From Bacillota bacterium (GTDB lineage Bacteria > Bacillota_I > Bacilli_A > Erysipelotrichales > Erysipelotrichaceae), in assembly GCA_023249475.1 (NCBI GenBank), contig JAHFCO010000007.1, positions 1 to 64,000 on the forward strand: a stretch of DNA of 64,000 nt, written 5' to 3'. A program made the translations under genes and the position numbers. Shown here piece after piece: positions 3,237 through 44,189 of this stretch (position 1 is the stretch's first letter; each line of letters begins with the position of its first letter). Below the pieces are notes generated by a model, which saw nothing but the letters and a program-made list of their open reading frames with translations, made no database searches and was not told the origin of the DNA.

Positions 3237-3256
3237 AGAAGACAGGAGGTGGAAGG

Positions 3257-4138: not shown

Positions 4139-5343
4139 TCGAATTGATTTCGTTTGGATTGAAACGACGTTTCTTGAATAAGACGTTCCTCATCTCCCAA
4201 TTGTTGTTGATCACCTTACTCGCCTGCCTGATGAACGCGGATCGGATCGCACTCTATTTCGGATTCACCCCACCGGGATATCTTCCGCTTTCATGGATGG
4301 ACGATGCAAGCGAGGTCGATGAAGCGTTTGCGAACGCCTATGGATTCACCCTTCAAGAAGAGGCGACGTTGAACGTGGTGAAAAGCATCGGGGGATACGA
4401 GGTCCGAAACGCGGCGCAACTCGACGCGATGCATCGGCTCCAACTTCAAGCCTACCTCACGACCCTCGGTAAAAACGAGTTTCTGGCGATCCGCAACCCC
4501 AGCGTCGCCGAATTGATCCAAGAGTACGAATCCGTCGAGATCCGGTTCGATACACCGATGGAAATCCGGGCGGTCGGAAAGGAAAGCTTCGTCTTCATGA
4601 TTCTGACCGCGGTCTATTTCATGGTTCTCAACTTCGCCGCGATGACCAGCAACGAAGTGGTCGCCGAGAAGTCGGCCAACGTGTTGGACATGGTGTTGAG
4701 CGCGACCGATGCGAAGTCGCATTACCGGGCGAAGTTGTTCGGTGGATGGTTGACCATGATCCTGCAGGGATGTTTCGCCTTGGGGACCTTGAGTGTTTTC
4801 GCGGTGTTACGCAACCAAAGCGACCTTGGGAAGGGTCTGTTGAGTTGGGCTTCCCAATTCGGCTTGGTCGAACGGGAAATCACCAGTTTCCGCGCGTTGT
4901 TTGAAATGTTGGATCTGGATTTTTCCTTCGGGATGACGATCGCGCTTTGCGTCTTCTTTTTACTGTGCGGGATGGCGATCCTCCAGATCCTCATGACCGT
5001 GATCGCGACCAGACTCAAAAGTGCCGAAGAAGCGTCAATCCTGCAAGGTCCTGTCTACATCTTTCTTCTCATCCTCTATTATGTCGCGCTGTCCCAGAAC
5101 ACGATCCCTCGTCTTTCGCAGGGTTTCGGAAAGATCGCCTCCTTTGTTCCGGTCACTTCCATGCTCTTCATGCCGATGAGGCTGCTCTCGTTGAAACTCG
5201 GGATCGGGGAGATCCTCTTCTCCGGACTCTTCGCCATTTCGAGTGCGGCGACGCTATTGTTTGTAGGTCAAAGGATCTATGAGAAAGGCATTCGCCATGA
5301 AAAAGTATTCAAAATCTATCTTGTGAAAAATAAAGCAAAATGA
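4135..5343 (+). CDS. ABC-2 type transporter permease
   Basis: About 402 residues, partner of the preceding ATPase. An N-terminal membrane segment (near residues 17-35) is followed by an extracytoplasmic region of roughly 100 residues, then about five to six membrane segments, as in NatB/YhaP-type ABC-2 permeases. The motif EKSANVLDMVLSAT, just after the second membrane segment, resembles the EK..R..E.L..TP motif of this family. A GTG start at 4126 is possible in the same frame, but the ATG at 4135 overlaps the upstream stop in the usual ATGA manner and is preferred. The substrate is unknown. Confidence 0.87.
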   Translation: MIELISFGLKRRFLNKTFLISQLLLITLLACLMNADRIALYFGFTPPGYLPLSWMDDASEVDEAFANAYGFTLQEEATLNVVKSIGGYEVRNAAQLDAMHRLQLQAYLTTLGKNEFLAIRNPSVAELIQEYESVEIRFDTPMEIRAVGKESFVFMILTAVYFMVLNFAAMTSNEVVAEKSANVLDMVLSATDAKSHYRAKLFGGWLTMILQGCFALGTLSVFAVLRNQSDLGKGLLSWASQFGLVEREITSFRALFEMLDLDFSFGMTIALCVFFLLCGMAILQILMTVIATRLKSAEEASILQGPVYIFLLILYYVALSQNTIPRLSQGFGKIASFVPVTSMLFMPMRLLSLKLGIGEILFSGLFAISSAATLLFVGQRIYEKGIRHEKVFKIYLVKNKAK

Positions 5344-5416
5344 GTAATAGTTTTGGTCGACTTTGCGAAAAATGGCGAAAAACGTAACGAAAGTGAAAGT
5401 ATTAACATAAAACACG

Positions 5417-5446
5417 TTGACGGTCAAGTCGGGCATTGTTTATAAT
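5417..5446 (+). promoter_or_regulatory. promoter of the duplicated-domain lipoprotein
   Basis: TTGACG (5417-5422), an 18-bp spacer and a perfect TATAAT (5441-5446). Together with AAAGGAGGAA at 5457-5466 this predicts strong expression. Confidence 0.8.
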
Positions 5447-5471
5447 CATGCGTGTAAAGGAGGAATTTAGA

Positions 5472-6440
5472 ATGAAAAAATTAGTCTTCTTACTTGCTGC
5501 CGCAGTATTGGTTCTTTCTTCGTTGACGGGTTGTGCCGCTCCGAAAGTTTACAAATTAGGTACCGCGAGCTTCACCGAAGTTTCCAGCCGTGCCGCCACC
5601 GCCGAGGTCGCCGGTCGTGTACAATTCACCACGATCTACGCCACCGTATTGCTTGACAAAGCTGACAAAATCGTATGGGTTTCGATCGACTCCGCTCAAA
5701 ACAACGGAACCTTCGACACCTTAGGTGCGATCGTTAAAGCCGAAGCCGCTCCGACCAAAAAGGAAAAAGGCGACGCTTATGGAATGAAGGCAAAATCTGC
5801 CATCGGTAAAGAATGGTACGAACAAATCGCCGCCCTCGAAGAATACTTCGTCGGCAAGACGGTTGCTGAAATCTTGGCCATGCCGTTGACCGATGAAGCC
5901 CCCGATGATCTGAAGACTTCCGTAACCATCGGTATCACCGGTTACCAAGAAGCCGTTAAGAAAGCCGCCGAAAACGCGGTTGAAGTCAAAGGTCTTAAGT
6001 CTGTCAGCTCCACTTCCGTTACGACCGTTTCCAGCCGTGCCGCGACAGCTGAAGTTGCCGGACGCGTTCAAACGAACGTCATCTTCGCAGGTGTTGCTTT
6101 CGACAAAGATGGTAAAGTATTGGCGCTCTCGATCGATACCGCTCAAAACAACGGAACCTTCGACACTGCCGGTGTCATCGTAAAAGCAGAAGTATCTGGA
6201 ACCAAGAAGGAAAAAGGCGACGAATACGGCATGAAGGCGAAATCCGCCATCGGTAAAGAATGGTATGAACAAATGGCTGCCCTTGAAGAATTCTTCATCG
6301 GCAAGACCGTTGCTGATATCATGGCGATGCCGTTGACCGACGAAGCTCCTGATGATCTGAAGACTTCCGTAACCATCGGAATCACTGACTATCAAGCCGT
6401 CGTCGAAAAAGCATTCGAAGCCAAAGTCGAAATCAAGTAG
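5472..6440 (+). CDS. secreted lipoprotein with two tandem copies of a ~149-residue domain
   Basis: 322 residues from the ATG at 5472; an upstream in-frame ATG at 5436 lies inside the promoter and is rejected. A lipoprotein signal peptide ends in LTGC with Cys21. Two near-identical domains follow, each with SSRAATAEVAGRVQ, a QNNGTFDT segment, KEKGD.YGMKAKSAIGKEW and PLTDEAPDDLKTSVTI. The offset is exactly 447 bases, and stretches are conserved even at DNA level. I recall similar single-domain proteins in Clostridia, sometimes labelled FMN-binding-like, but no catalytic or FMN-attachment motif can be confirmed here. The strong promoter and SD suggest an abundant surface protein. It is monocistronic, closed by a terminator. 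Confidence 0.75.
   Translation: MKKLVFLLAAAVLVLSSLTGCAAPKVYKLGTASFTEVSSRAATAEVAGRVQFTTIYATVLLDKADKIVWVSIDSAQNNGTFDTLGAIVKAEAAPTKKEKGDAYGMKAKSAIGKEWYEQIAALEEYFVGKTVAEILAMPLTDEAPDDLKTSVTIGITGYQEAVKKAAENAVEVKGLKSVSSTSVTTVSSRAATAEVAGRVQTNVIFAGVAFDKDGKVLALSIDTAQNNGTFDTAGVIVKAEVSGTKKEKGDEYGMKAKSAIGKEWYEQMAALEEFFIGKTVADIMAMPLTDEAPDDLKTSVTIGITDYQAVVEKAFEAKVEIK
5580..6437 (+). repeat. tandem intragenic duplication, 447-bp period
   Basis: The bases starting TTTCCAGCCGTGCCGC at 5581 recur at 6028, and TGAAGACTTCCGTAACCATC at 5911 recurs at 6358, always 447 bases (149 codons) apart. Similarity remains at nucleotide level, which points to a recent duplication or ongoing homogenisation. Confidence 0.9.
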
Positions 6441-6462
6441 TTCTCGACACAATGTCAAAATC

Positions 6463-6484
6463 AAAAGAGCCTTCGGGCTCTTTT
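6463..6484. terminator. bidirectional terminator (lipoprotein / rarA)
   Basis: AAAAGAGCC-TTCG-GGCTCTTTT: a 9-bp stem with a stable UUCG tetraloop between two convergent genes. Confidence 0.92.
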
Positions 6485-6485
6485 G

Positions 6486-7748
6486 TTATTTCTCTTTCTT
6501 CAGTTTCGCCAAGTCCACTCTTCGCTTCGTCTTCCTTAACTCTTCAAGGTTGGCCGCGAGTTGCTTTTCATATGTACTGTTGGTGTTGGGTTGATAGAAA
6601 CGCAGGTTCTTCACCGCATTGGGAAGGTATTGGATCTTGTGCCATAAATCCGGACGATCGTAGGGATACTTGTCTTCTTCCTTCATCCCGACCGGGGTCA
6701 GTCTCAAATAGTCCGGGACGGGATAGGCGTGGTCTTCCAGTTCGGCGATGGCCGCATGGATGGCCAAGCATCCGCTCTTGGATTTCGGCGACAATGCGAG
6801 GTCGATGACGGCGGTTCCGAGGATGATCGAAGCTTCGGGGAAACCGACACGTTTGGCGGCGTCGATCGCGTTGATCGTCCGTGCGACGGCGGCCGGGTTG
6901 GCCAAGCCGATGTCTTCATAGGCCGTCACAAGCAATCGTCTCTCGATCGAATCCATGTCGTCCGCCAGGATCAAACGAGCCAAATAATAGAGGGATGCAT
7001 CGGGGTCGCTGCCTCGTATCGATTTCTGAAACGCACTCAGCGCGTCGTAATGGTCGTCCGCATCGTGGTCCATCGCAAGATTCGCTTGCCGGGTATACTG
7101 ATTTACGTCTTCACGCGTGATCTGCTTGCCCGGGAGCGCGATGGCGAGGATCTCCAGGAGATTGTAGGCATAACGGATATCCCCGTTACTGAGGTCGCAA
7201 ATCGTTTTGACAGCCTCTTCGTTCAGTGAACATCCGCCCAGTTGCGAGTCCGGATGATTCAAGGCGCGATCCAAGGCTTTACGCATGTCCTGCTCTTCGA
7301 TCCGTTTGAATTCCAACAACTGACATCTGGAGCGAACCGCGGGGTTGATGGAGAAGTACGGATTGGACGTCGTCGCCCCGATCATGATGATGGTGCCGTC
7401 TTCGATATGGGGAAGCAGCAGATCCTGTTTATCCTTATTCAACCGATGGACCTCGTCCACGATGACGACCATCGATCCGTAAAGCTTCGCTTCCGCGAAG
7501 ATCGTATCCAATTCCTTCTTGTTTCCGGTCACCGCATTGAACTTCCTTAGCGGTAGCGTCAACTCGTTGGCCATCACGGAAGCGACGGTGGTTTTACCCG
7601 TCCCCGGCGGCCCGAAGAAGATCATCGAAAACAAACGCTTCTCTTCGACACATCGACGTAAAAGCGCGCCTTGGGAAACCAAGTGCGATTGTCCCAGGAC
7701 ATCGTCCAGTTTGGTGGGACGAATACGGAAAGCCAGGGGTTGTTTCAT
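6486..7748 (-). CDS. rarA: replication-associated recombination protein A (RarA/MgsA AAA+ ATPase)
   Basis: 420 residues. RarA is a tetrameric AAA+ ATPase related to clamp-loader subunits that acts at stalled replication forks. Visible are LAFRIRP..LDDVLGQ at the N-terminus, Walker A GPPGTGKTT, Walker B VVIVDEVHRL, a sensor block GATTSNPYF and the C-terminal MgsA oligomerisation region (YLPNAVKN.RFYQP). The start follows an anti-SD-perfect AAGGAGGTG (7755-7763 on the complement). It is divergent from the dtd operon and its stop lies next to the shared terminator. Confidence 0.95.
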   Translation of the reverse strand: MKQPLAFRIRPTKLDDVLGQSHLVSQGALLRRCVEEKRLFSMIFFGPPGTGKTTVASVMANELTLPLRKFNAVTGNKKELDTIFAEAKLYGSMVVIVDEVHRLNKDKQDLLLPHIEDGTIIMIGATTSNPYFSINPAVRSRCQLLEFKRIEEQDMRKALDRALNHPDSQLGGCSLNEEAVKTICDLSNGDIRYAYNLLEILAIALPGKQITREDVNQYTRQANLAMDHDADDHYDALSAFQKSIRGSDPDASLYYLARLILADDMDSIERRLLVTAYEDIGLANPAAVARTINAIDAAKRVGFPEASIILGTAVIDLALSPKSKSGCLAIHAAIAELEDHAYPVPDYLRLTPVGMKEEDKYPYDRPDLWHKIQYLPNAVKNLRFYQPNTNSTYEKQLAANLEELRKTKRRVDLAKLKKEK

Positions 7749-7813
7749 CGAATCACCTCCTTTCTATTCTAACATTACTGAAAAGATAGTAAAATGAAAG
7801 AAGAGGTGATCCT

Positions 7814-8263
7814 ATGCGTGCAATCCTACAAAGAGTTTCCCAAGCCAACGTGACAGTGGACGACAACGTCGTCGGATCGATCGGACATGGGCTGGTCGTC
7901 TATGTCGGGGTCCATCTGGACGATACGGTCGAGGATGCGAAGAAACTTGCCTATAAGATCGCCCATGCCCGGGTCTTTGAAGACGACCAGGGCAAAATGA
8001 ACCTGAGCGTGATCGATGTGAACGGAGCGGTGCTCTCGATTTCCCAATTCACATTGTACGGGGAGACGAAGAAGGGGCATCGTCCTTCCTATGATAAGGC
8101 CGCACGGCCGGAGCCTGCGAATCTGCTTTATGAGGCATTCAATACGGAGCTACGTGAACGCGTCCCGGTGCAGACCGGACTGTTTCAAGCCCATATGATC
8201 ATCGACCAAACCAACGACGGTCCCGTGACCCTCGTGTATGAAACAAGGGAGGCAAACCTATGA
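7814..8263 (+). CDS. dtd: D-aminoacyl-tRNA deacylase
   Basis: 149 residues, full length. Dtd removes D-amino acids (and glycine from tRNA-Ala) wrongly attached to tRNA. The N-terminal MRAILQRVSQANVTV, the SQFTLYG motif and the GP-V motif (NDGPVTLV near the C-terminus) are all present. It is the first gene of dtd-folD-DUF951-ychF and its stop overlaps folD by ATGA. The SD AGAGGTGA lies just upstream of the ATG. Confidence 0.95.
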   Translation: MRAILQRVSQANVTVDDNVVGSIGHGLVVYVGVHLDDTVEDAKKLAYKIAHARVFEDDQGKMNLSVIDVNGAVLSISQFTLYGETKKGHRPSYDKAARPEPANLLYEAFNTELRERVPVQTGLFQAHMIIDQTNDGPVTLVYETREANL

Positions 8264-9123
8264 CTGAATTGATGGATGGAAGATTGACCGCGAAGAAAGT
8301 CGAAGATGATTTGAAGATCAAGATCGGGTTACTGAAGGAAAGAGGGAAGCGGACGCCCCAGTTGACCGTCGTGTTGGTCGGTGACCATCCGGCGTCGCTA
8401 AGTTACGTTGCCGGAAAAGACAAAGCGTGCCAGCGCATCGGGATGAATTCCGAAGTGTTGCGTCTGCCCCGCACCATTTCCCAAACCGAACTCATCAAAG
8501 TGGTCCAACGCTTGAATGACGATTCCCAAGTCGACGGAATTCTGGTACAATTACCCCTGCCTGCCGAATTGGATCCGCAGGAAGTCGTACGCGCCATCGA
8601 TCCTTCCAAGGACGTGGACGGCTTGCATCCGATCAACGTCGGACTCATGCACATGCAACTCAAGGGCTTTGAACCTTGTACGCCCAGAGGCATCCTGAGA
8701 CTGTTGGACGAATACCAGATCCCTTTACAGGGAAAAGATATCGTCGTCATCGGAAGAAGCAACCTGGTCGGCCGTCCGGTCGCGCAATTGTTGTTGAACC
8801 GCAATGCGACCGTCACCGTCTGCCATTCCAAAACCGCGGATCTGCAACGCTATACCCGCGCGGCGGATGTCGTCGTGGTCGCCATCGGCCGTCCTCATTT
8901 CCTGCGTAAGGAACATGTCTCTTCCAAGTGCGTCGTCATCGACGTCGGCATCAACCGGCTTGAAAACGGGAAATTGACGGGGGACGCGGATTTCGACGCC
9001 CTCAACGGGTATGTTTCCCACATCACCCCGGTACCGGGCGGCGTGGGTCCGATGACCATCGCCATGTTGCTGGAAAACACGATGGACGCCTACTATGCAC
9101 ATGAAGCCCTGCGGGAGGTCTAA
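8260..9123 (+). CDS. folD: bifunctional methylenetetrahydrofolate dehydrogenase / methenyltetrahydrofolate cyclohydrolase
   Basis: 287 residues. FolD interconverts 5,10-methylene-, 5,10-methenyl- and 10-formyl-tetrahydrofolate with NADP+, supplying one-carbon units. It has the catalytic Tyr-Lys pair in SYVAGKDKAC, DGILVQLPLP, the GRSNLVGRP nucleotide-binding loop and PGGVGPMTIAML at the C-terminus. It is translationally coupled to dtd, and the next gene starts directly after its stop. Confidence 0.96.
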   Translation: MTELMDGRLTAKKVEDDLKIKIGLLKERGKRTPQLTVVLVGDHPASLSYVAGKDKACQRIGMNSEVLRLPRTISQTELIKVVQRLNDDSQVDGILVQLPLPAELDPQEVVRAIDPSKDVDGLHPINVGLMHMQLKGFEPCTPRGILRLLDEYQIPLQGKDIVVIGRSNLVGRPVAQLLLNRNATVTVCHSKTADLQRYTRAADVVVVAIGRPHFLRKEHVSSKCVVIDVGINRLENGKLTGDADFDALNGYVSHITPVPGGVGPMTIAMLLENTMDAYYAHEALREV

Positions 9124-9321
9124 ATGGAATACGATTTAAACGACATCGTCGAAATGAAAAAAGAACATCCCTGCCATAAATCCAAACAGTGGCGGATCAT
9201 CCGCATGGGTGCCGACATCAAGATCAAATGTCTTGGGTGCGGGGCTGCGATCATGTTCGACCGAAGCGAATTCGAAAAGAAACTGAAAAAGGTGGTCGAA
9301 CACCACCCGAAAACGGAATAA
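9124..9321 (+). CDS. DUF951 family small protein
   Basis: 65 residues with the family hallmarks: M..YDLNDIVEMKK.HPCH, a W.I.R.GADIKIKC core and CLGCG. The pattern resembles a small beta-barrel with a metal-binding Cys set, but its biochemical role is unknown. In many Bacillota it lies next to ychF, as here. The ATG directly abuts the folD stop, so it belongs to the same transcript. Confidence 0.9.
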   Translation: MEYDLNDIVEMKKEHPCHKSKQWRIIRMGADIKIKCLGCGAAIMFDRSEFEKKLKKVVEHHPKTE

Positions 9322-9342
9322 CGCCTTGAAAGGAGTTTCACT

Positions 9343-10443
9343 ATGCCCTTAACCGCCGGAATCGTCGGCTTACCGAACGTCGGTAAATCGACCTTATTCA
9401 ACGCGATCACCCAATCCCAGGTCGAAGCCGCCAACTACCCCTTCGCCACCATCAACCCCAACGTCGGGGTGGTCGAAGTCCCCGACCATCGGGTCGATAC
9501 CTTGCACGAGATATTCAACAGTAAGAAAACCATCCACACCACCTTCGAGTTCACCGACATCGCAGGCTTGGTGAAGGGGGCGAGTAAAGGCGAAGGACTG
9601 GGCAACCAATTCCTTTCGCATATCCGCGAAGTCGACGCGATCGTCCATGTCGTCCGCTGTTTCGACGACAATGAGATCACCCACGTCGAAGGGACCATCG
9701 ATCCCTTACGCGACATCGAAATCATCAACCTCGAACTGATCCTGGCGGATGCGGCGAGCGTGGAGAACCGACTGAATAAAGTGGAACGCAAGGCCGCCCA
9801 GAAAGATAAAGACGCCGTCTTGGAGTTCACTGTCCTGAAGCGTGTCTATGATGCGCTGATGGCGGGGAGATCCGCCCGTTCCGTCGAGATGGCGAGCGAC
9901 GAAGCCTTGGTCGTCAAGGGATACAACCTGTTGACCGCCAAACCGGTCATCTATGTCGCGAACATGTCCGAGGAAGAAATCGGGAATCCGGAAACCAACG
10001 CCTATTACCAGATCGTGAAGAAGTTCGCCGCGGGCGAAAGCAACGAAGTCATCCCCATCTGCGCGAAGATCGAAGAAGAACTTGCGATGTTGGAGGCGGA
10101 TGAGAAGAAAGAATTCCTCAACGACCTCGGGATTCAAGAGAGCGGGTTGGACCGCATCATCAAAACCACCTATCACTTGCTTGGACTCTCCACCTTCCTG
10201 ACCGCAGGGGTCCAGGAAGTCCGTGCCTGGACCTTCATCAAGGGCATGAAAGCCCCCGAGTGCGCCGGTGTCATCCACACCGACTTCCAAAAAGGGTTCA
10301 TCCGTGCTGAAACCTACGCCTATGACGATCTGATCGCCCTCGGGAGCGAACAAGCCGTGAAAGACGCCGGGAAACTGCGTTTGGAAGGAAAAGAATATCA
10401 AGTTCAAGACGGGGACGTCCTGCATTTCCGATTCAACGTCTAA
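9343..10443 (+). CDS. ychF: ribosome-associated ATPase YchF/OLA1 family
   Basis: 366 residues, full length. An Obg-like P-loop NTPase that prefers ATP and binds ribosomes and 70S/50S particles; linked to stress responses. G1 GLPNVGKST near residue 8 and DIAGLVKGASKGEGLGNQFL (G3 region) are clear. A coiled-coil insertion and the C-terminal TGS domain (RAETYAYDDL...LEGKEYQVQDGD) follow. It ends the dtd-folD-DUF951 transcript and has a good SD (AAGGAG). Confidence 0.96.
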   Translation: MPLTAGIVGLPNVGKSTLFNAITQSQVEAANYPFATINPNVGVVEVPDHRVDTLHEIFNSKKTIHTTFEFTDIAGLVKGASKGEGLGNQFLSHIREVDAIVHVVRCFDDNEITHVEGTIDPLRDIEIINLELILADAASVENRLNKVERKAAQKDKDAVLEFTVLKRVYDALMAGRSARSVEMASDEALVVKGYNLLTAKPVIYVANMSEEEIGNPETNAYYQIVKKFAAGESNEVIPICAKIEEELAMLEADEKKEFLNDLGIQESGLDRIIKTTYHLLGLSTFLTAGVQEVRAWTFIKGMKAPECAGVIHTDFQKGFIRAETYAYDDLIALGSEQAVKDAGKLRLEGKEYQVQDGDVLHFRFNV

Positions 10444-10446
10444 TTA

Positions 10447-10455
10447 TGCTATAAT
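10447..10455 (+). promoter_or_regulatory. extended -10 promoter of darA
   Basis: TGCTATAAT matches the extended -10 (TGnTATAAT) 28 bases before the darA ATG. No convincing -35 box is seen in the end of ychF. Confidence 0.55.
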
Positions 10456-10482
10456 AAGGGTATCAGAAGAGGAGGACAGATC

Positions 10483-10806
10483 ATGAAACTCATTCTCGCG
10501 ATCGTTTCCAACGACGATGCCCATAGCGTCATCAACGCCCTAAACAAAGCGGATTTCATCGTCACGCGTTTGTCTACGACCGGCGGTTTCCTGCGTGCGG
10601 GGAATACGACCTTGATCATCGGTACCGAAAACGAACAAGTCGAACACTGCATCGAGGTCATCGGCGAAGAAAGCAAACGCCGCACCGAGATCGTCCCTTC
10701 GACCGCTTCCTACGACATCGGACGATACGCATCCTTCCCGATCGAAGTCCAAGTCGGGGGCGCGACGGTCTTCGTACTGGATGTCGAACAATTCCATAAA
10801 CTCTAA
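10483..10806 (+). CDS. darA: cyclic di-AMP receptor DarA/PstA (PII-like)
   Basis: 107 residues. DarA (YaaQ, PstA) is a trimeric PII-like protein that binds the second messenger c-di-AMP. The sequence shows the diagnostic TRLSTTGGFLRAGNTTLIIG loop (residues 28-47) and the ASYDIGRYASFPIEVQVGGA segment that forms the ligand pocket. It has its own promoter and terminator and is therefore monocistronic. The presence of DarA implies that the cell makes c-di-AMP; the cyclase is not in this window. SD GAGGAGGA. Confidence 0.95.
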   Translation: MKLILAIVSNDDAHSVINALNKADFIVTRLSTTGGFLRAGNTTLIIGTENEQVEHCIEVIGEESKRRTEIVPSTASYDIGRYASFPIEVQVGGATVFVLDVEQFHKL

Positions 10807-10815
10807 TATGTAAGC

Positions 10816-10846
10816 AAAAGCGACCTTGAAGTGTAAGGTCGCTTTT
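10816..10846. terminator. bidirectional terminator (darA / PfkB-type kinase)
   Basis: AAAAGCGACCTT-gaagtgt-AAGGTCGCTTTT, a 12-bp stem between convergent genes. Confidence 0.92.
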
Positions 10847-10848
10847 CT

Positions 10849-11694
10849 TTAGGGATGGGGATATTCCAATTCGACGATGTCCGGATTGACCGCCGTGGTC
10901 GCATCCGAGGTTTTCCGAGCGCATTTGATGCCGAAGGAGAGACTGAGTTCGATGGATAAACCGTTGGCCATCGCGTGCATGAAGCCGGCCACCAAGGCGT
11001 CGCCCATGCCGATGTCGTTGCCCCAACCCAACACCGGGGCGTCGATGTAGGTCGATTTCCCGTAGTAGTCGAAGCGTAGCCCGTCCTGATCCATGGTGAC
11101 GCATGTCAGAGGGATCGACGACGAACTCTTGAAGAAGCTGAAGATCGAGTCCGAGGAACGCAACACCTCGTGTTTGTTGGCGAAGACGGCGAAGAAGGAA
11201 GATTGAAGTTCGGCCGGGGGAAGGAAACCCAATGCGATCCATTTCACCTTCGGGGTGCGTTGGATCAAGGTCGCAAGGAATTGCGGGTCGTCCTGGTCGG
11301 TGATGCCGATCTCCTGTCCCTCCAATAGAAAGGTGGGGAAGAGGTCGCCACGGTTGAAAAAGAAATCATCGGTGATGGTGGACGCCATCATCGATTTCTT
11401 ATTGGAGATCAGTTGATAAAAATGAGGGGTCGGGGCGTTGACGATCGTACTGTGCACCTGGATGCCCAAGGTCTCCGTACGCGTGATCAAGTCCAACGCT
11501 TCGCTGTCGTTGCCGAATTTCGCCCAAAAGAAAACCTTGTTTCCAAACAACGCCAGATTATGGGCGATGTTGCGGACGGCTCCGCCGTCGGCGGGGTAAC
11601 GCGTGCTTTTCGTACATCTTCCGATCTCAAAGGGAGTCGGCGAGAGAAGTACCGTATCGATCATGGCTGTGCCGATCGCGATAAACAATCCCAT
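10849..11694 (-). CDS. PfkB-family carbohydrate kinase
   Basis: 281 residues, resembling the PfkB/ribokinase superfamily that phosphorylates sugars or nucleosides with ATP. The N-terminal GTAMIDTV and DGGAVRNIAHNLALFG blocks match PfkB signature 1. The C-terminal signature reads NDIGMGDALVAGFMHAM, where the family normally has GAGD; the Asp expected to act as base is kept but the anion-hole Ala is Met. The substrate is unknown; pseudouridine kinase-like or indigoidine-cluster-type PfkB proteins are possible relatives. The gene stands alone, convergent to darA and divergent from the hydrogenase-sensor module. Confidence 0.78.
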   Translation of the reverse strand: MGLFIAIGTAMIDTVLLSPTPFEIGRCTKSTRYPADGGAVRNIAHNLALFGNKVFFWAKFGNDSEALDLITRTETLGIQVHSTIVNAPTPHFYQLISNKKSMMASTITDDFFFNRGDLFPTFLLEGQEIGITDQDDPQFLATLIQRTPKVKWIALGFLPPAELQSSFFAVFANKHEVLRSSDSIFSFFKSSSSIPLTCVTMDQDGLRFDYYGKSTYIDAPVLGWGNDIGMGDALVAGFMHAMANGLSIELSLSFGIKCARKTSDATTAVNPDIVELEYPHP

Positions 11695-11782
11695 GCAATC
11701 ACCTCGGACATTATCATACCATACTTAACCAATCGGATTGCACACTCAATGTTGAAATCGGGGAAGTCATGACGAATTTGCG

Positions 11783-11811
11783 TTGCGTCACGGGGTGAGG
11801 TGTGGTAAACT
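11783..11811 (+). promoter_or_regulatory. promoter of the hydrogenase-sensor operon
   Basis: TTGCGT (11783-11788), a 17-bp spacer and TAAACT (11806-11811), about 40 bases upstream of the first gene. Confidence 0.55.
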
Positions 11812-11852
11812 ATGTTGTGAAAAAAATCTCATTATGAGGATGGAGGGTCGCC

Positions 11853-12098
11853 ATGACGATCGAAATCTGTATCGGTAGTTCGTGCTATGTGAAGGGGTCG
11901 GATAAAATCGTGCTCCTGGTCAAGGAAATCCTGGTGAAACGCGGTTTGGACGCGAAAGTCGAACTGAAGGGTTCGTTCTGTATGAACGCTTGCACGCAAG
12001 GGATCGGAGTGAAGATCGACGGGAAGATGATCCGTCTGTTGGATCTTGACCTCGCCGAGAAACAACTCAACCTCGCCATCGACGAGGCCTTGTCATGA
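11853..12098 (+). CDS. thioredoxin-like [2Fe-2S] ferredoxin domain protein (NuoE/HndA-like, minimal)
   Basis: 81 residues. The Cys pattern C6-x4-C11...C43-x3-C47 is that of the thioredoxin-fold [2Fe-2S] domain of NuoE and HndA, here as a stand-alone minimal domain. Such small proteins are often encoded beside [FeFe]-hydrogenases as electron carriers. Its stop overlaps the start of the hydrogenase-like sensor gene by ATGA, so the two products are made together. It probably passes electrons to or from that protein; this is inferred from context. Confidence 0.85.
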   Translation: MTIEICIGSSCYVKGSDKIVLLVKEILVKRGLDAKVELKGSFCMNACTQGIGVKIDGKMIRLLDLDLAEKQLNLAIDEALS

Positions 12099-13759
12099 AT
12101 CCGATTTCGCTTTTCGAAGCGAACTGTAAATCCTGCCACCATTGCGTACGGGCCTGCGTGACCAAGGCGATTTCCTTCGTCAACGGGAAACCGGAGATCG
12201 ACGATGAAGAATGCATCCTGTGCGGGGCATGCTATACCGTCTGTCCCCACGATGCCAAACAAATCACCAGCGACCTGGCGCAAGTCCGCCAATGGATCCT
12301 CAACGGCGAGGAAGTCATCGCCAGTCTGGCCCCCAGTTATCCCGTGTTGAACGCGGATTTTTCCGCATGGAAGAAACGCCTGCTTGAAGTCGGATTCAGC
12401 GATGTCGTCGAGACGGCCCAAGGTGCGGCCTATGTTTCCTCGGAATACGTCCGACTCGGTGCCCACTATCCCGACCAAACCTTCATTTCGACCTGCTGTC
12501 CCGCGGTCGTGACCTATATCGAAACCCGCTATCCCCAATTGACTCATCTTCTAGCACCGACCTTATCCCCGATGGTGGTCTCCGGGAAACTGATCAAGCA
12601 GGACCATCCTGCGGCGAAAGTCGTCTTCATCTCCCCCTGCGTCGCCAAAATCAATGAGGCGTCAGAGTTCAGGTCGTTCATCGACGGGGTCGTCACGATG
12701 AGCGAACTCGACCAACTGGTCCGGATCTACGACGACCGTTATCCCCCAAACAACCCTGAAGTCTTTTCAGGCAGGATCGCACGCAGTTATCCAGCGTCCA
12801 CGGGGATCCTGAAATCGATGCGCCCCTTCGTTTCCGACAACGTCGACCTGATGTGCGTGGAAGGGGTGGACCGGGTCAAGGAAGTCCTGGACGGACTTAT
12901 GAACCATGAATTGCCCTCGACCTTCATCGAAATGAGCGCCTGCGTCGGGTCGTGCATCAACGGACCGATCCTGCGTCCCTATAAAGACCGTGAAATCGCG
13001 GCGATCCAGGCATTGCGTACGACCCGTGTCTTGGACAATCTTCCGATGGATCCCACATTGGTTGCGACGACCCACGTCGCCCATCCTTTAGTACAAAAGA
13101 TCCACCTTGAATCCGACATCTTGTCCGTTCTTGAGAAACTCGGGAAAACCGATCCTTCAAAAGAACTGAATTGCGGAGCCTGCGGTTATCCGACCTGTCG
13201 CGAAAAAGCGGTGGCGGTGTTGGATAAGAAGGCCGACCCCTATCTCTGTCTACCGTTCGCGTTGGAGCGTGCCCAGTCGATGTCCAACGCGGTCATCCAG
13301 CACACCCCCAACGGAATCATCATCGTGGATGACGAAGCCCGCATCGTCGAAATCAACCCGGCCGCGCGTCAACTTTTGTCATGCGTCAATTTCCCCGTGG
13401 TCGGTTTCCCCTTGGAAGCCCTGCTTCCCGACCCCCAACTCAAACCCCTAGTGTTGGATCGTACGCAGGTCCATTACATCCAAAGCGACTACCCCCAGTA
13501 CGGACGCACCTTCATGCATGCGACCGTGCCTTTACCCGAAGAACGCTGCACCTTGATCATCCTGATGGACCTTACCCAGGAAACCACGCGGGAAAAACAC
13601 CTGAAACAAGTCCGTACCGATACCTTGCTTGTCACACAACAGGTCTTGGATGAACAGATGCGCACCGTGCAGGAAATCGCGAAACTATTGGGAGAGACCA
13701 CGGCGAAAAGCAAGATCGCCCTGTCCCGCCTGAAAAAAAGCGTCGAGGAAGACCAATGA
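12095..13759 (+). CDS. sensory [FeFe]-hydrogenase-like protein with ferredoxin, Fe-S and PAS domains (HydS/HsfB-like)
   Basis: 554 residues. N-terminal 2x[4Fe-4S] ferredoxin (Cys11, 14, 17, 21 and Cys40, 43, 46, 50). The H-domain follows with H-cluster motifs in sensory form: L1 STCCPAVV (Cys134/135), L2 SPCVAK (Cys182) and L3 EMSACVGSCINGP (Cys283/287), instead of the GGG of catalytic enzymes. A [4Fe-4S] domain CGACGYPTC...C (Cys360, 363, 368, 385) leads into a PAS domain (about 395-500) and a C-terminal helical tail. The family is thought to sense H2 or redox state rather than turn over H2 quickly. It overlaps the phosphatase gene by ATGA and is likely its upstream input. Maturases HydEFG are not in the window. 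Confidence 0.9.
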   Translation: MNPISLFEANCKSCHHCVRACVTKAISFVNGKPEIDDEECILCGACYTVCPHDAKQITSDLAQVRQWILNGEEVIASLAPSYPVLNADFSAWKKRLLEVGFSDVVETAQGAAYVSSEYVRLGAHYPDQTFISTCCPAVVTYIETRYPQLTHLLAPTLSPMVVSGKLIKQDHPAAKVVFISPCVAKINEASEFRSFIDGVVTMSELDQLVRIYDDRYPPNNPEVFSGRIARSYPASTGILKSMRPFVSDNVDLMCVEGVDRVKEVLDGLMNHELPSTFIEMSACVGSCINGPILRPYKDREIAAIQALRTTRVLDNLPMDPTLVATTHVAHPLVQKIHLESDILSVLEKLGKTDPSKELNCGACGYPTCREKAVAVLDKKADPYLCLPFALERAQSMSNAVIQHTPNGIIIVDDEARIVEINPAARQLLSCVNFPVVGFPLEALLPDPQLKPLVLDRTQVHYIQSDYPQYGRTFMHATVPLPEERCTLIILMDLTQETTREKHLKQVRTDTLLVTQQVLDEQMRTVQEIAKLLGETTAKSKIALSRLKKSVEEDQ

Positions 13760-14934
13760 TCGAAACACGCGTCAACGCGGCTTTTCGTTCGTTGACGAAA
13801 ACCAAGGAAGAACTCTGCGGGGACGATGTCCAAATCCGCGTCGACGAAAAGAACTTCGTGTTGGTATTGGCGGATGGCTTGGGTAGCGGCGTCAAGGCGA
13901 ACATCCTGGCGACTCTCTCCGCAACCATCATCAGCGAACTCTTGATTCAAGGCTTGGATCTCAGCGAAGCGGTCGCGACCTTGGTGGCGACCCTGCCTGA
14001 ATGCGAAGAACGGCACATCGCCTATGCGACGTTCGCCGCCTTGATGATCGATGCGAAGGGGAAAGCGCAACTGGCCGAATTCGACCAACCCCAAAGCGTC
14101 CTCTTCCGAAATCGACGGGAACTTCCGATTCAGCGCACGTCCAGCCTCATCGAAGGGAAAACGATCTTCGAAGCCCGCTTCGACGTCCTTCCCGGGGATG
14201 TTTTACTCTGCTTCTCCGACGGCGTAGAACACGCAGGTCTAGGCCGTATCCTGAATTTCGGCTGGCAACGCAAGGAAATCGTGCGTGCCACGGAAGAAAT
14301 CCTGATGAAAACCATGAATCCGATCCACCTCGCGGATCGCTTGATCGATCAAGTCGACTCCCTCTATCATTTCGAAGCGGGGGACGACGCGACCGTCGCC
14401 TTCGCCGTCGTGGAAGGGAACCAGGAAAGCGCGGTGCTTGTCGGTCCGCCCTCGGATCCGTCGCAGGACCATCGTTTAGTGTATGAATGGCTTTCCCGTC
14501 CGGGTGCGAAAATCGTCTGCGGCGGAACGACCGCGTCGATGGTCGCACGTGAACTCAATCTCGAACTGAAAATCGGTGAGATCCTCCCCGGGGCGACCTT
14601 GCCTCCGGCCGGATCCATCCACGGGGTCGACCTTGTGACCGAAGGCGTGTTGACGCTCAGTCGTACAAGAGATCTTCTTCGCCATGCCTCGTTGAATCAA
14701 AACGCCCTGCAGATCTTGTTGAACGACGACAGTCCGGACGCGGCGACCCGCTTGGCACGCAAACTCCTGGAAGGACCGGTCAAAGTACGGTTCATGCTGG
14801 GGCTGGCGGAAAACCCCGCACATAAGGCAGAAAAAGGGTTGCTGATCTCGCTCAACGCCAAACTCAACCTTGTCCGCGAGATTGCGGAAGAATTGAGAAA
14901 ACAAAGGAAATTAGTAACTGTGGAGATGTATTGA
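13756..14934 (+). CDS. SpoIIE-like PP2C-type serine phosphatase, output of the hydrogenase sensor
   Basis: 392 residues. The SpoIIE/PPM fold occupies about residues 1-220 with metal-binding motifs ADGLGSG (Asp40-Gly41), FSDGVEHAG (Asp155) and GDDATVAF (Asp210, Asp211), so an active Mn/Mg-dependent phosphatase is expected. The C-terminal 170 residues contain GAKIVCGGTTASMVAR, a domain I do not recognise from classical SpoIIE. It overlaps the HydS-like gene by ATGA. Such a phosphatase next to a sensory hydrogenase is known in Clostridia; by analogy it may act on an anti-sigma-factor antagonist, but none is encoded nearby. A terminator ends the operon. Confidence 0.88.
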   Translation: MIETRVNAAFRSLTKTKEELCGDDVQIRVDEKNFVLVLADGLGSGVKANILATLSATIISELLIQGLDLSEAVATLVATLPECEERHIAYATFAALMIDAKGKAQLAEFDQPQSVLFRNRRELPIQRTSSLIEGKTIFEARFDVLPGDVLLCFSDGVEHAGLGRILNFGWQRKEIVRATEEILMKTMNPIHLADRLIDQVDSLYHFEAGDDATVAFAVVEGNQESAVLVGPPSDPSQDHRLVYEWLSRPGAKIVCGGTTASMVARELNLELKIGEILPGATLPPAGSIHGVDLVTEGVLTLSRTRDLLRHASLNQNALQILLNDDSPDAATRLARKLLEGPVKVRFMLGLAENPAHKAEKGLLISLNAKLNLVREIAEELRKQRKLVTVEMY

Positions 14935-14955
14935 ACCGAGGCGACTCGGTTTTTA
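14934..14955 (+). terminator. terminator of the hydrogenase-sensor operon
   Basis: AACCGAG-GCGA-CTCGGTT followed by TTTTACG; the stem starts at the stop codon. Confidence 0.85.
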
Positions 14956-19659: not shown

Positions 19660-20940
19660 ATGAAGCGGTTTGAAGCATTTGCAGAAAAATTCCTGGTTCC
19701 AATTGCAGATCGGATTTCCCGCAATAAGGAAATCAATGCTGTTAAAGATGGGATGGTACAAATTCTACCATTATTGTTAATTGGATCGATCGTATTGGTT
19801 ATCACGAACTTCCCATACATCGAGAAAATTCTGCCCGGTGTCGATCTTTGGGGGATTTTTGGAAAAGGTTACGAAGCAACGATGGGGATCGCTGCGCTCG
19901 TTGGAGCATTTACATTCGCATACAACTATGCAATTTCTTTAGGTAGCAACGGTGTTTATGGTGGGATTACTTCGGTTGCCGCCTATTTCCTGGTTACGGA
20001 CTTTGCTGTTACCACGGATACAGGTTCGGTATATGGTATTCCAGTGGCTGCACTCGGCGCAAAAGCGTTGTTCACGGTCATTCTTGTCGCCCTTGTCTCT
20101 GTAAGAATCTACGTTTTCTTCGAAAAGAAAAACATCGTTATCCGTATGCCGGAATCCGTTCCTGCGAACATTTCAAAATCATTCTCTTCAATTCTGCCGA
20201 TGCTGTTTGTCACATTCGCAATGCTCGCGATCCGCTCTGGTTTGGCGGCCACCTCTTTCGGGAATCTGCAGAATTTCGTCTTTACGATTATCACGACTCC
20301 GTTGCTCGGATTGGCTAATCTACCCTTCTTCATCGTCGTCATGAATATGATGATCATGGTATTCTGGTTCTTTGGATTACACGGCGGACTATTGTCTACC
20401 GCAATCTTCGGACCGGTATTAACCACGATGACACTGGCCAACGCAGACGCGTTTGCGAATGGGGAAAAGATTCCTTACATTACGTCTCAAGTGTTCAACA
20501 ACACATATGGTACGCTGGCGGCAGCCGGTGTTCTCGCAGCGGTTGTCGCCGCGATGATTGTCGGACGATCCAAACGTACAAAAGCTGTCTCTAGACTATC
20601 GATTGTACCGGCGATTTTCGGGATCCAAGAACCGTTCCACTTCGGATTTCCGACCTTCTTGAATCCGATTACGTTAATTCCTTATGTCTTTGTTCCTGCG
20701 ATTACAGCATTTATCGGATATACGTTGATTCAACTGGGAATTGCACCGCAACCCGTTATCGACGTCCCTTGGACGACGCCGATTTTGATCCAAGGGTTCA
20801 TCTCGACAAACTATAATATCATGGGTGCCCTTGTACAACTCTTCCTGTTTGCCATCTCCGTGTTGATGTACATTCCGTTCATTCGCATTGTTGATAAAAC
20901 TTATCTCAAAGAAGAAGCGGAGAATGATTCGGTAAAATAG
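19660..20940 (+). CDS. PTS EIIC component, lactose/cellobiose family (probable MurNAc or MurNAc-disaccharide uptake)
   Basis: 426 residues with about ten membrane segments. The N-terminus (FLVPIADRISRNKEINAVKDG) and the IQEPFHFGFPTFLNP motif are typical of CelB/LacE-type EIIC proteins, which carry sugars while EIIB phosphorylates them. No EIIB or EIIA is fused or adjacent. Known MurP proteins are of the glucose-family EIIBC type, so a lac-family EIIC beside murQ and mupG is an unusual pairing. The substrate is inferred from neighbours only. SD GAGAGGAAAG. Confidence 0.88.
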   Translation: MKRFEAFAEKFLVPIADRISRNKEINAVKDGMVQILPLLLIGSIVLVITNFPYIEKILPGVDLWGIFGKGYEATMGIAALVGAFTFAYNYAISLGSNGVYGGITSVAAYFLVTDFAVTTDTGSVYGIPVAALGAKALFTVILVALVSVRIYVFFEKKNIVIRMPESVPANISKSFSSILPMLFVTFAMLAIRSGLAATSFGNLQNFVFTIITTPLLGLANLPFFIVVMNMMIMVFWFFGLHGGLLSTAIFGPVLTTMTLANADAFANGEKIPYITSQVFNNTYGTLAAAGVLAAVVAAMIVGRSKRTKAVSRLSIVPAIFGIQEPFHFGFPTFLNPITLIPYVFVPAITAFIGYTLIQLGIAPQPVIDVPWTTPILIQGFISTNYNIMGALVQLFLFAISVLMYIPFIRIVDKTYLKEEAENDSVK

Positions 20941-21002
20941 ACTTGAGTCATTTGAACGCTTGCTGGCGGCAAGTTCGAATGATTATCAACGATTGATTAA
21001 AT

Positions 21003-21033
21003 GGCAGCCGGTCTTTCCGGCTGCCCTTCCTTT
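21003..21033 (+). terminator. intercistronic terminator/attenuator between EIIC and MFS
   Basis: GGCAGCCGG-tcttt-CCGGCTGCC followed by CTTCCTTT. The 9-bp GC-rich stem is strong but the T tract is broken, so partial read-through into the MFS-murQ-mupG genes is likely. Another imperfect hairpin lies at about 20949-20985. Confidence 0.7.
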
Positions 21034-21051
21034 AGAAAGTGGCATATTGCC

Positions 21052-22221
21052 ATGGGTCAATTCATGAAAAGAGATTTGAGACTTACCATTGCTTTACAAG
21101 TATCGTTTTGGAGTTTGATATGTACTACGTATGTTTACCTAAGTGCATACCTATATCATTCAGGATTCTCGATAACGTTGGTTGCGTACTCGTTCGCTGT
21201 TTCAAAGGCACTTGGATTCATAACCCAATGCTTGATCGTCGGTTTTTTGAAACCGCAACATGATGAAGTCAAACTGTTAAGAACCGGAGTCATACTGATG
21301 ACGTTGTCGCTAATCTCAATGCACCTGTTTAAAAGTGGATATGCTGCATTGGTTTGCCTGGTGTTTCTCGGTGCTTTCGAGAATAGTATGCCGACATTGA
21401 TGGATGCATGGTTGATCCGAAGCACGAAGGAGATATCCGTTTATGCTTCGGTCCGATCATTTGCTTCCTTGGCCTTCGCTTCGTGCTCCCTTCTCCTAGG
21501 GAACCTGGTCGGTCGGTGGGGATACTCGACAATTCCTGTATTAGCGGTGTGCATCCTCATGGTAACGATATATCTCTTGTTGAAAATCGAATCCCACAAC
21601 TCCGACCATGTCATCGAACTCTGGAAGCCGGAACCCATGAAACCACGAACTTTGTTCAGTAGTTGGATGGTCCTTGCGTTGGGATTCGGTTTTGTACTTC
21701 TTCCTTTTGGTCAGATTCTGCCTTTACTCGTTACAGGATCCAATCTTTCCCAAGGATGGATCGGAATCATGACGGGGATGACTTCCATCTTTCAGTTCTT
21801 ATCGCTGAGAATGTATCATAAAGTCGACTCGTTGAACGACGATCTTAAAGTGACTATCGGTCTTGCGGCTTATGTGATCGGATTATTTCTCTGTCAAAAC
21901 AAATCGATCACTTCGCTTCTTCTGTCACAGGTTTTCTTTGGATCAGGATATGGGATACTCTTCCCGACACTAAAAGGTCTTATTGTCAAACAATCAGATG
22001 ATGCTGATACTCGTCAAAAACTAATCATCAGTGATTTGATGATATTCTCAATTTCGCCTCTACTCGCAAGCATCGCGTTCGGCTGGGCGATAAACAATCT
22101 CGGCATAGATGGAATCATCATTGGACTAGTCACTATTCTACTTGCAACAGCGGCATTATATCTTGGTCAAAATATTTTCAAAGGAGGAAAAAAACATGGA
22201 ATTAAGCAAACTCGTAACTGA
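21052..22221 (+). CDS. MFS transporter of the MurNAc locus
   Basis: About 389 residues with twelve predicted membrane segments; major facilitator family, sugar-porter-like. The frame is open from an ATG at 21001, but that codon is in the foot of the terminator hairpin, so the ATG at 21052 (or 21064) is preferred; only a weak SD (GAAAGTGG) precedes it. Its end overlaps the murQ start region by 26 bases, so translation is probably coupled. A sugar, MurNAc-peptide or anhydro-sugar substrate is plausible from context but not shown. Confidence 0.8.
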   Translation: MGQFMKRDLRLTIALQVSFWSLICTTYVYLSAYLYHSGFSITLVAYSFAVSKALGFITQCLIVGFLKPQHDEVKLLRTGVILMTLSLISMHLFKSGYAALVCLVFLGAFENSMPTLMDAWLIRSTKEISVYASVRSFASLAFASCSLLLGNLVGRWGYSTIPVLAVCILMVTIYLLLKIESHNSDHVIELWKPEPMKPRTLFSSWMVLALGFGFVLLPFGQILPLLVTGSNLSQGWIGIMTGMTSIFQFLSLRMYHKVDSLNDDLKVTIGLAAYVIGLFLCQNKSITSLLLSQVFFGSGYGILFPTLKGLIVKQSDDADTRQKLIISDLMIFSISPLLASIAFGWAINNLGIDGIIIGLVTILLATAALYLGQNIFKGGKKHGIKQTRN

Positions 22222-23107
22222 AACTAGAAATCCAAATACCTACCAACTCGACGAAATGGACGCATTGGGAATCGTTAGGGCAATGAATGTCGAAGATAGA
22301 AAAACGATTGAAGCGGTTGAAAAAGAAGCAGAACACATCGCCGAAGTCATCGACGCTGTCGTTGAGAGAATGCGTGCCGGAGGAAGATTGATATACTGTG
22401 GAGCGGGCACAAGCGGAAGACTCGCTGTTTTGGACGCAGTCGAGTGCGTACCGACGTTCGGGATGGCCAAAGATCGCGTAATTGCCCTATTGGCAGGGAC
22501 AGCTGCGGATAGTCAAGCAAAGGAAGAGGCCGAAGATGATCCCGTATTGGCTGTTAACTCCCTTAAAATGATCGATCTTCAATCCAATGATGTATTGATT
22601 GGAGTGGCTGCAAGCGGAAGAACCCCTTATGTGATCGGTGCTTTGGATTACGCAAAGGAAAAGAAGGCAATGACTGTATCGATTGCTTGCAACCCTAATT
22701 GCGAAATGACGAAACATGCCGACTTGGCGATTGAACTAAATAATGGACCGGAAGTACTAACGGGATCAACCCGGTTAAAGGCAGGGACATCTCAAAAGAT
22801 GGTCCTGAACATGATTACCACGGCATCCATGATTCTTATGGGGAAAGTCTATGAGAACTTAATGGTGGACGTGGAAGTAAGTAACGAGAAGCTAAAGCAG
22901 CGATGGATTAATATCGTTAGGGAAATTACAGGATGCGAGTACGAAGAGGCAGATGAATACTATTCGCTGTCCGAAGGAAACGCGAAGGTCGCTTCAATAA
23001 TGATCATGCATCATTGTTCAAGTGAAGTGGCGAGACAACTACTGACGAAGTACAACGGTTTCCTGAAACCGTGTCTTGCATCGGTGAAGGAGACGGAAAA
23101 TGTTTAA
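22196..23107 (+). CDS. murQ: N-acetylmuramic acid 6-phosphate etherase
   Basis: 303 residues. MurQ cleaves the D-lactyl ether of MurNAc-6-phosphate, giving GlcNAc-6-phosphate and D-lactate. It shows ETRNPNT...LD near the N-terminus, the SIS-domain GRLIYCGAGTSGRLAVLDA signature, EC.PTFG and the ALLAGT.A...A.E.AEDD block with the catalytic Glu region, and GPEVLTGSTRLKAGTSQK. The start at 22196 has a near-perfect SD (AAAGGAGGAAA) and the normal family N-terminus. Its end overlaps mupG by 8 bases. Confidence 0.96.
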   Translation: MELSKLVTETRNPNTYQLDEMDALGIVRAMNVEDRKTIEAVEKEAEHIAEVIDAVVERMRAGGRLIYCGAGTSGRLAVLDAVECVPTFGMAKDRVIALLAGTAADSQAKEEAEDDPVLAVNSLKMIDLQSNDVLIGVAASGRTPYVIGALDYAKEKKAMTVSIACNPNCEMTKHADLAIELNNGPEVLTGSTRLKAGTSQKMVLNMITTASMILMGKVYENLMVDVEVSNEKLKQRWINIVREITGCEYEEADEYYSLSEGNAKVASIMIMHHCSSEVARQLLTKYNGFLKPCLASVKETENV

Positions 23108-44140: not shown

Positions 44141-44152
44141 AAAAAGTGAAGT

Positions 44153-44175
44153 AAGGTTGCTCCGGCAACCTTTTT
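44153..44175 (+). terminator. intercistronic terminator/attenuator after EIIC
   Basis: AAGGTTGC-tccg-GCAACCTT followed by TTT. It would lower transcription of the downstream enzyme genes relative to EIIC. Confidence 0.8.
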
Positions 44176-44189
44176 ACTGGAGGGAACCC

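Follow-up and report, generated by a model that had tools for sequence, protein, structure and literature searches.

An [FeFe] hydrogenase with a PAS domain, encoded between a small [2Fe-2S] protein and a SpoIIE-like phosphatase, raises the question of what such a set of genes senses and what its phosphatase acts upon. We analyzed this arrangement at positions 11853 to 14934 of a 64,000-nucleotide stretch (the window) of contig JAHFCO010000007.1, assembly GCA_023249475.1, from a member of the Erysipelotrichaceae. A preliminary description had read the locus as three genes joined by ATGA overlaps, and we found the open reading frames (ORFs) and overlaps in that place. On the plus strand, ORF and Pfam data delimit a NuoE-like [2Fe-2S] protein of 81 amino acids (11853-12098), a PAS-bearing group C [FeFe] hydrogenase of the HydS/HfsB type with 554 amino acids (12095-13759; HydS below), and a SpoIIE-type PP2C phosphatase of the HfsC type with 392 amino acids (13756-14934), the three being coupled by ATGA overlaps at 12095 and 13756. 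From gene content, motifs, predicted folds, co-occurrence in relatives, and maturase and STAS searches of the genome, all of them direct observations, we conclude that the module is probably an hfsABC/HydS-type sensor of H2 (or of redox state) with a predicted Ser/Thr-phosphatase output. A sensing module with protein dephosphorylation as its predicted output is the reading best supported by our analysis, and it is the same as that published for related operons of R. albus and Thermoanaerobacterium (PMC6776011, PMC5707799, PMC11837493; for these and the other papers cited we rely on the portions of text available to us).

Proteins of the module

The first protein, with cysteines at positions 6, 11, 43, and 47, matched the Pfam family 2Fe-2S_thioredx (PF01257; E 1.8e-5) at 25.1 bits, just above the cut-off of 24.8, which bears out the earlier proposal of a separate, minimal NuoE-like protein; it holds an HfsA-like position, ahead of HydS. 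HydS itself matched Fer4, Fe_hyd_lg_C (PF02906, E 4e-37), FeS (PF04060, E 2.5e-10), and PAS_8 (PF13188, E 4e-6). From these matches and from alignments, we placed two N-terminal [4Fe-4S] cysteine sets (Cys11, 14, 17, and 21 and Cys40, 43, 46, and 50; 12125-12244), an H-domain (residues 74 to 291; 12314-12967, also aligned to solved hydrogenases), a C-terminal FeS domain (Cys360, 363, 368, and 385; Pfam stretch 358 to 387; 13166-13255), and a PAS domain (13289-13435), which probably reaches beyond the Pfam stretch of residues 399 to 447. The PAS domain noted previously is thus present, and the single [4Fe-4S] cluster noted with it is replaced by two N-terminal sets plus one C-terminal four-cysteine set.

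We compared HydS with its relatives in an alignment of 97 rows, the window protein being row 97 and the others coming from the 96 of 100 loci described below that have a HydS of at least 500 amino acids plus a phosphatase. The H-cluster ligands Cys135, Cys182, Cys283, and Cys287, which also align with those of solved hydrogenases, are invariant in all 97 rows, as are the four cysteines of the C-terminal FeS domain, so the H-cluster positions given before (Cys134/135, 182, and 283/287) were correct. Published work assigns enzymes to group C when Cys299, Met353, and Met497 of CpI are altered (PMC10055695, the source of the CpI numbering used here). In the alignment to solved hydrogenases, Ser180 takes the place of CpI Met353 and Ser281 that of CpI Met497, as in sensory enzymes. 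Cys134 is retained; this position is Cys in 56 and Ala in 34 of the 97 rows, and a Cys at the proton-transfer position occurs in 17% of the sensory sequences in HydDB (PMC10055695). Since two of the three tuned positions differ from those of catalytic enzymes and Cys134 is kept, the pattern is sensory-like yet incomplete. By its H-cluster cysteines and its FeS-then-PAS architecture, the hydrogenase is classed, from sequence, as group C (HydS type). None of the three module proteins had an NCBIfam match above cut-off (the best score of the hydrogenase was to group B1, 185 bits against a cut-off of 450), and we found no HydDB group C3 label for this hydrogenase type in the literature.

Two features go beyond those described previously, and the first is the conserved HydS tail at about residues 505 to 550 (13607-13744), for which conservation and hydrophobicity period predict an amphipathic helix. 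The tail contains no prolines in 4462 aligned positions of the 97-row alignment, and the periodicity of its hydrophobicity is strongest at 100 degrees, the pattern of an amphipathic helix. Its QxIAxxLGxxxA core (residues 526 to 537) is invariant, with Met522, Gln526, Ile528, Ala529, Leu532, Gly533, and Ala537 found in 97 of 97 rows.

The phosphatase matched Pfam SpoIIE (PF07228, E 5e-19), and its AlphaFold2 model, built from 21 sequences, had a predicted local distance difference test score (pLDDT) of 88. A Foldseek search with this model returned SpoIIE (5mqh, E 3e-16) and also RsbX and the RsbU/RsbW protein Rv1364c, indicating a PP2C fold. Asp23, Asp40, Asp155, Asp210, and Asp211 are invariant in all 21 phosphatases, in agreement with the earlier statement that Asp40, Asp155, and Asp210/211 are kept, and by motif Asp40-Gly41, Asp155, and Asp210/211 correspond to D628-G629, D746, and D795 of SpoIIE. 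In the model the chain opens at strand 1, and the CGD motif, which we located in 99 of 100 relatives scanned, lies at median residue 21; the phosphatase therefore lacks a linker helix at its N terminus such as RsbU and RsbP have.

The second additional feature is a Rossmann-like C-terminal domain of the phosphatase, residues 221 to 392 (about 170 residues; 14416-14931), modeled by AlphaFold2 with a pLDDT of 89. This domain had no match in a Pfam search of the window protein, no match in a sequence search of the PDB (best E 0.4), and nothing under E 0.001 in a Foldseek search with its model. The best VIA-align matches were to domains of formylmethanofuran dehydrogenase/NuoG-type subunits (Z 8.2 to 9.3, root mean square deviation 3.3 to 4.0 over 115 to 125 residues), Z values that are in or slightly over the range the tool calls common and that we did not use as functional evidence. 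A PHD_like identity was rejected, the Pfam matches in 2 of the 21 members (E 0.0022) being judged chance.

Co-occurrence and gene neighborhoods in relatives

In a sample of 392 genomes drawn from one phylum, full-length phosphatase, its C-terminal domain, and full-length HydS were each found in 41 genomes, the three sets being identical, and in these 41 the HydS and phosphatase relatives lie side by side, so the pairing is not due to chance. The C-terminal domain occurs in a single copy in each, always inside the phosphatase ORF. All other phosphatase matches in the 392 genomes were partial, none spanning the whole PP2C domain and none better than E 1e-8. The module is widespread and no isolated case, a single scan having confirmed at least 569 relatives. 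For the wider neighborhoods we used 100 loci, 20 of them chosen by hand from the 41 genomes (19 of the 30 best-match loci L010 to L039, re-fetched wider, plus one lower-ranked genome) and 80 being the best of the 569 or more relatives; species overlap between the two subsets is possible, and some loci are clipped at contig ends. They come from Erysipelotrichaceae, Clostridia, Bacteroidales metagenome-assembled genomes (MAGs), Treponema, Paenibacillus, and others, and the closest matches of the module among those listed are Erysipelotrichaceae and Solobacterium MAGs.

HydS is directly upstream of the phosphatase in 100 of these 100 loci, 99 found by script and one (L127) by eye, the script having missed it because its phosphatase ORF was called from an upstream start. 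In 83 of the 100 loci, a relative of the 2Fe-2S gene lies no more than 3 kb from the phosphatase. The sequence distances of HydS and phosphatase are correlated with r 0.89 over 97 pairs, a value reached in 0 of 2000 permutations; the corresponding values are 0.59 for HydS and the 2Fe-2S protein (83 loci) and 0.84 for HydS and the hfsD-type hydrogenase (55 loci).

Neighbors of the relatives were labeled by their best BLAST hits against the proteins of the genome studied here, "hfsD-type" meaning a best hit to its B1 hydrogenase; the one such gene that was checked (L045) scored above the B1 cut-off, at 548.5 bits. In 66 loci the sequence extends 5 kb or more to each side of the module, and in 52 of these (51 without the single group-D-only locus) a hydrogenase that is catalytic or of group D lies no more than 6 kb away: hfsD-type (B1) in 39, HydABC in 11, group D in 1, and group D plus hfsD-type in 1. 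The other 14, like the window, have no nearby hydrogenase of those kinds. At 11 of 66 loci, a HydABC neighborhood was rejected as a general rule.

The recurrent same-strand neighbors are Rex (22 of 100 loci), AdhE (16), an APH-fold kinase (13), and a LysR-type regulator (10), with at least one of them in 31 loci; Rex and the kinase were identified by Pfam, and AdhE and LysR were named by sequence appearance. On visual inspection, neither a sigma-factor gene nor a STAS gene was conspicuous in the set of recurrent neighbors. The APH-fold kinase gene lies upstream of the 2Fe-2S gene in its 13 modules, and the copy in L055 (9568-10320, about 250 amino acids) has intact HGDxxxxN and DW motifs. We aligned 12 of the 13 kinases (alignment A4, omitting that of L085, which is clipped at a contig end). 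Strong matches (E below 1e-70) were found in 14 of the 392 genomes, 9 with the phosphatase and 5 without it, and in one (G301) the kinase adjoins a hydrogenase match. A search of our genome with this alignment found no such kinase. We therefore rejected it as the antagonist here; the 5 of 14 genomes without the phosphatase also indicate that it is not an obligatory partner.

The rest of the genome and the readings of the module

The hydrogen-sensing proposal presupposed that the cell can make an H-cluster, and a search of the genome for the maturases found all three above cut-off: HydE (462.6 bits), HydG (536.5 bits), and HydF (552.1 bits), together on contig C29 (5654-10804) in the order HydE, HydG, an aspartase-like gene, and HydF. 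The genome thus has the means to make the cofactor. It encodes four [FeFe] hydrogenases, three of them besides the window HydS: C24 carries a HydA of group A6 and an enzyme resembling group D, and C25 a B1 enzyme. We considered the B1 enzyme as a relocated hfsD and rejected this, as it is 34 to 37% identical to 13 family-type hfsD proteins that are themselves a median of 62% alike. Rex is also encoded in this genome. The C24 cluster (3242-11195) comprises genes for NuoE, a DRTGG-domain protein, an RsbW-like HATPase, the group D [FeFe] hydrogenase, a second DRTGG-domain protein, a PHP-like protein, a second HATPase, a 2Fe-2S protein, HydB, and HydA6, the two DRTGG-domain proteins scoring slightly below the Pfam cut-off.

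A STAS domain search gave 0 matches in this genome, which is 96% complete, so that a STAS gene may have been missed; the same search was positive in 10 of 14 control genomes. The earlier remark that no antagonist is near the module therefore holds, and for STAS it extends to the whole genome, with one RsbW-like HATPase on C24. With no STAS match in the genome, that putative kinase is here without the class of substrate usual for it. In an Erysipelotrichaceae MAG (L070, 6054-11412), 2Fe-2S, HydS, phosphatase, NuoE, DRTGG, RsbW, and group D genes follow one another on one strand, either overlapping or separated by gaps of 8 bases. Its NuoE, DRTGG, RsbW, and group D genes are 43 to 69% identical to their C24 counterparts, its group D ORF having 326 amino acids compared to 441 to 455 in this genome. 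This continuation of the module suggests the C24 cluster as its partner here.

In the mechanism we infer, which concerns H2 as the ligand, helix docking, the direction of control, and the target, HydS would bind H2 at a slow, sensor-tuned H-cluster, and electrons would pass through its N-terminal clusters and perhaps also the small 2Fe-2S protein. A change of state at the H-cluster would reshape the C-terminal part with its FeS and PAS domains, and that state would be relayed by the C-terminal helix to the separately encoded phosphatase. RsbU and RsbP are switched by a helical linker that dimerizes their phosphatase domains via alpha1/alpha2 (PMC12143880, PMC5468089), and the HydS helix would most likely replace the alpha0 linker helix that such phosphatases carry in cis, moving the alpha1/alpha2 metal switch. 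The phosphatase would act on a protein phosphorylated at Ser/Thr that governs flux through catalytic hydrogenase and alcohol dehydrogenase. With no catalytic hydrogenase adjacent, the module in this genome may exert its effect in trans, either on the C24 cluster of HydABC and group D genes or on the C25 B1 hydrogenase.

Genetic data from related operons bear on the direction of control. In Thermoanaerobacterium saccharolyticum, deletion of hfsA or hfsB raises ethanol, an effect that requires hfsC and hfsD, and hydrogenase activity goes up on deletion of hfsB alone (PMC5707799); these phenotypes suggest that HydS/HfsB acts as a restraint. In T. thermosaccharolyticum, hfsD alone, overexpressed in a strain lacking hfsABCD, gives a high-ethanol phenotype (PMC11837493), so the output probably ends on the activity or amount of the catalytic hydrogenase. 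The hydS cluster of R. albus goes down 111-fold in co-culture (PMC6776011). In the group D enzyme TamHydS, the C-terminal cluster is not reduced by H2 (PMC13104023), which weighs against a simple redox relay.

Several observations count against a sensor with phosphatase output. The sufficiency of hfsD alone in the strain lacking hfsABCD means that the phosphatase is not always required; the enzyme retains Cys134, which serves proton transfer in catalytic hydrogenases, so that it may still be catalytic; the r of 0.84 between HydS and hfsD-type distances implies that the HydS-phosphatase correlation also reflects common ancestry; 14 of 66 loci are without a nearby hydrogenase of the kinds counted; and absence of the APH-fold kinase leaves the module here without an obvious kinase partner.

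With its tail helix and a phosphatase without a linker helix, the HydS-phosphatase pair looks like a PAS-linker-phosphatase of the RsbP type cut in two. A more specific proposal, which we put forward only tentatively, is that the HydS tail serves as alpha0 in trans and toggles the phosphatase metal switch, that the C-terminal domain of the phosphatase responds to a second signal or binds a substrate other than a STAS protein, and that the RsbW-like protein of C24 is the opposing kinase. Kinase and phosphatase would then make up an H2-sensing pair that operates without partner switching of sigma factors.

The 2Fe-2S protein and HydS could instead form a working catalytic hydrogenase, with the phosphatase as its private regulator and sensing secondary. 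Retention of Cys134, the existence of orphan loci (14 of 66), and a published suggestion that HfsABC could work as a hydrogenase in the absence of HfsD (PMC13277313) are in line with this. It is an unlikely explanation given the Met-to-Ser changes at both tuned positions, the joint retention of a PAS-bearing HydS and the phosphatase, and the very low activity of characterized HydS enzymes (PMC11376134, PMC10055695). It is also rather doubtful that the group C phosphatase module and the group D/RsbW-like kinase module are opposed sensors sharing one non-STAS phosphoprotein, for example a DRTGG-domain protein. L070 unites both modules in one close-packed strand and this genome carries both halves, but a group D gene lies within 6 kb in only 3 of 100 loci, an RsbW-like gene occurs in 2 (L070 and L131) of the 80 loci and in none of the other 20, and the RsbW-like protein is a putative kinase.

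Classical partner switching, in which the phosphatase would act on a STAS anti-anti-sigma factor phosphorylated by an RsbW/SpoIIAB kinase, accords with the SpoIIE/RsbU-type fold and with the RsbW-like HATPase that adjoins the group D hydrogenase on C24. The lack of a STAS match in this 96% complete genome makes it unlikely, and, with neither sigma-factor nor STAS genes conspicuous among the recurrent neighbors, we consider it very improbable. Least probable of all is decay, the module being what remains of an hfsABCD operon after loss of the hydrogenase gene: five same-family relatives (L040 to L044) have an hfsD-type gene just upstream where the window has none, and the C25 enzyme is not the relocated copy, but the three ORFs are open and overlapping, with catalytic and ligand residues intact.

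Setting in the window and relation to known systems

Immediately after the phosphatase stop lies a terminator-like hairpin with a U run on the plus strand (14933-14952; folding energy -11.5 kcal/mol, z -2.9), which was absent from the output of a consensus terminator scan and was noticed by eye and then folded. A promoter scan of the plus strand from 11650 to 11852 found no promoter-like site. The upstream neighbor is a minus-strand gene (10849-11694) whose product we take, from its appearance, to be a PfkB-type sugar kinase. Elsewhere in the window, 5436-6440 encodes a putative lipoprotein built from a unit of about 125 residues that occurs in two closely similar copies (SSRAATAEVAGRVQ...). 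Two gene sets (19660-24203 and 42866-46672) presumably encode phosphotransferase system (PTS) permease-like proteins, each with a DUF871-like protein; this duplication suggests doubled uptake of amino sugars or cell wall sugars.

The module type is already known, since it resembles hfsABC and hydS, and its orphan setting is that of 14 of 66 relatives. By function and order it is like hfsABCD of T. saccharolyticum and T. thermosaccharolyticum, where a small first gene (HfsA), a PAS [FeFe] hydrogenase (HfsB), and a serine phosphatase (HfsC, termed a serine phosphatase homologue in PMC11837493) follow in the same order (PMC5707799, PMC11837493). Those operons have an adjacent hfsD, whereas this genome has no module-type hfsD, only the distinct B1 and HydABC enzymes elsewhere; and HfsA is reported to align poorly with any known protein (PMC11837493), whereas the first gene here encodes a recognizable NuoE-type 2Fe-2S protein. 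The R. albus hydS-hydA2 cluster likewise has an H-cluster/PAS group C subunit and a putative Ser/Thr phosphatase subunit, but R. albus co-transcribes hydrogenase and alcohol dehydrogenase (PMC6776011) and the window module stands alone. TmHydS of Thermotoga maritima shares the H-cluster cysteines, altered Met positions, C-terminal [4Fe-4S], and PAS domain (PMC10055695), with Ala131 where the window enzyme has Cys134 and Gly177 where it has Ser180. TamHydS of T. mathranii (group D) has the H-cluster cysteines and C-terminal [4Fe-4S] in common and lacks the PAS domain (PMC13104023). The PPM phosphatases RsbP, RsbU, and SpoIIE share the PP2C fold and metal ligands, and RsbP the PAS-helix-phosphatase logic (PMC12143880, PMC5468089, PMC3183031); here, in contrast, sensor and phosphatase are separate proteins, there is an extra Rossmann-like C-terminal domain, and no STAS substrate was found in the genome.

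A literature search, mostly excluding subscription papers, found no paper uniting SpoIIE, a PAS domain, and an FeFe hydrogenase and no publication on the HydS tail helix or the phosphatase C-terminal domain. New here are that domain, the HydS tail helix together with a linker-less phosphatase, the STAS result, and the neighborhoods beside B1/HydABC hydrogenases, Rex, AdhE, and sometimes a kinase. The orphan module suggests a function apart from the usual hydrogenase. Modules of this type are spread through gut and fermentative bacteria, and their mutation in Thermoanaerobacterium shifts ethanol yield. The signaling route of sensory [FeFe] hydrogenases was described as unknown in a 2024 review (PMC11376134), and the HydS tail, the linker-less phosphatase, and its dedicated C-terminal domain offer concrete pieces of the missing transduction step that can be put to the test.

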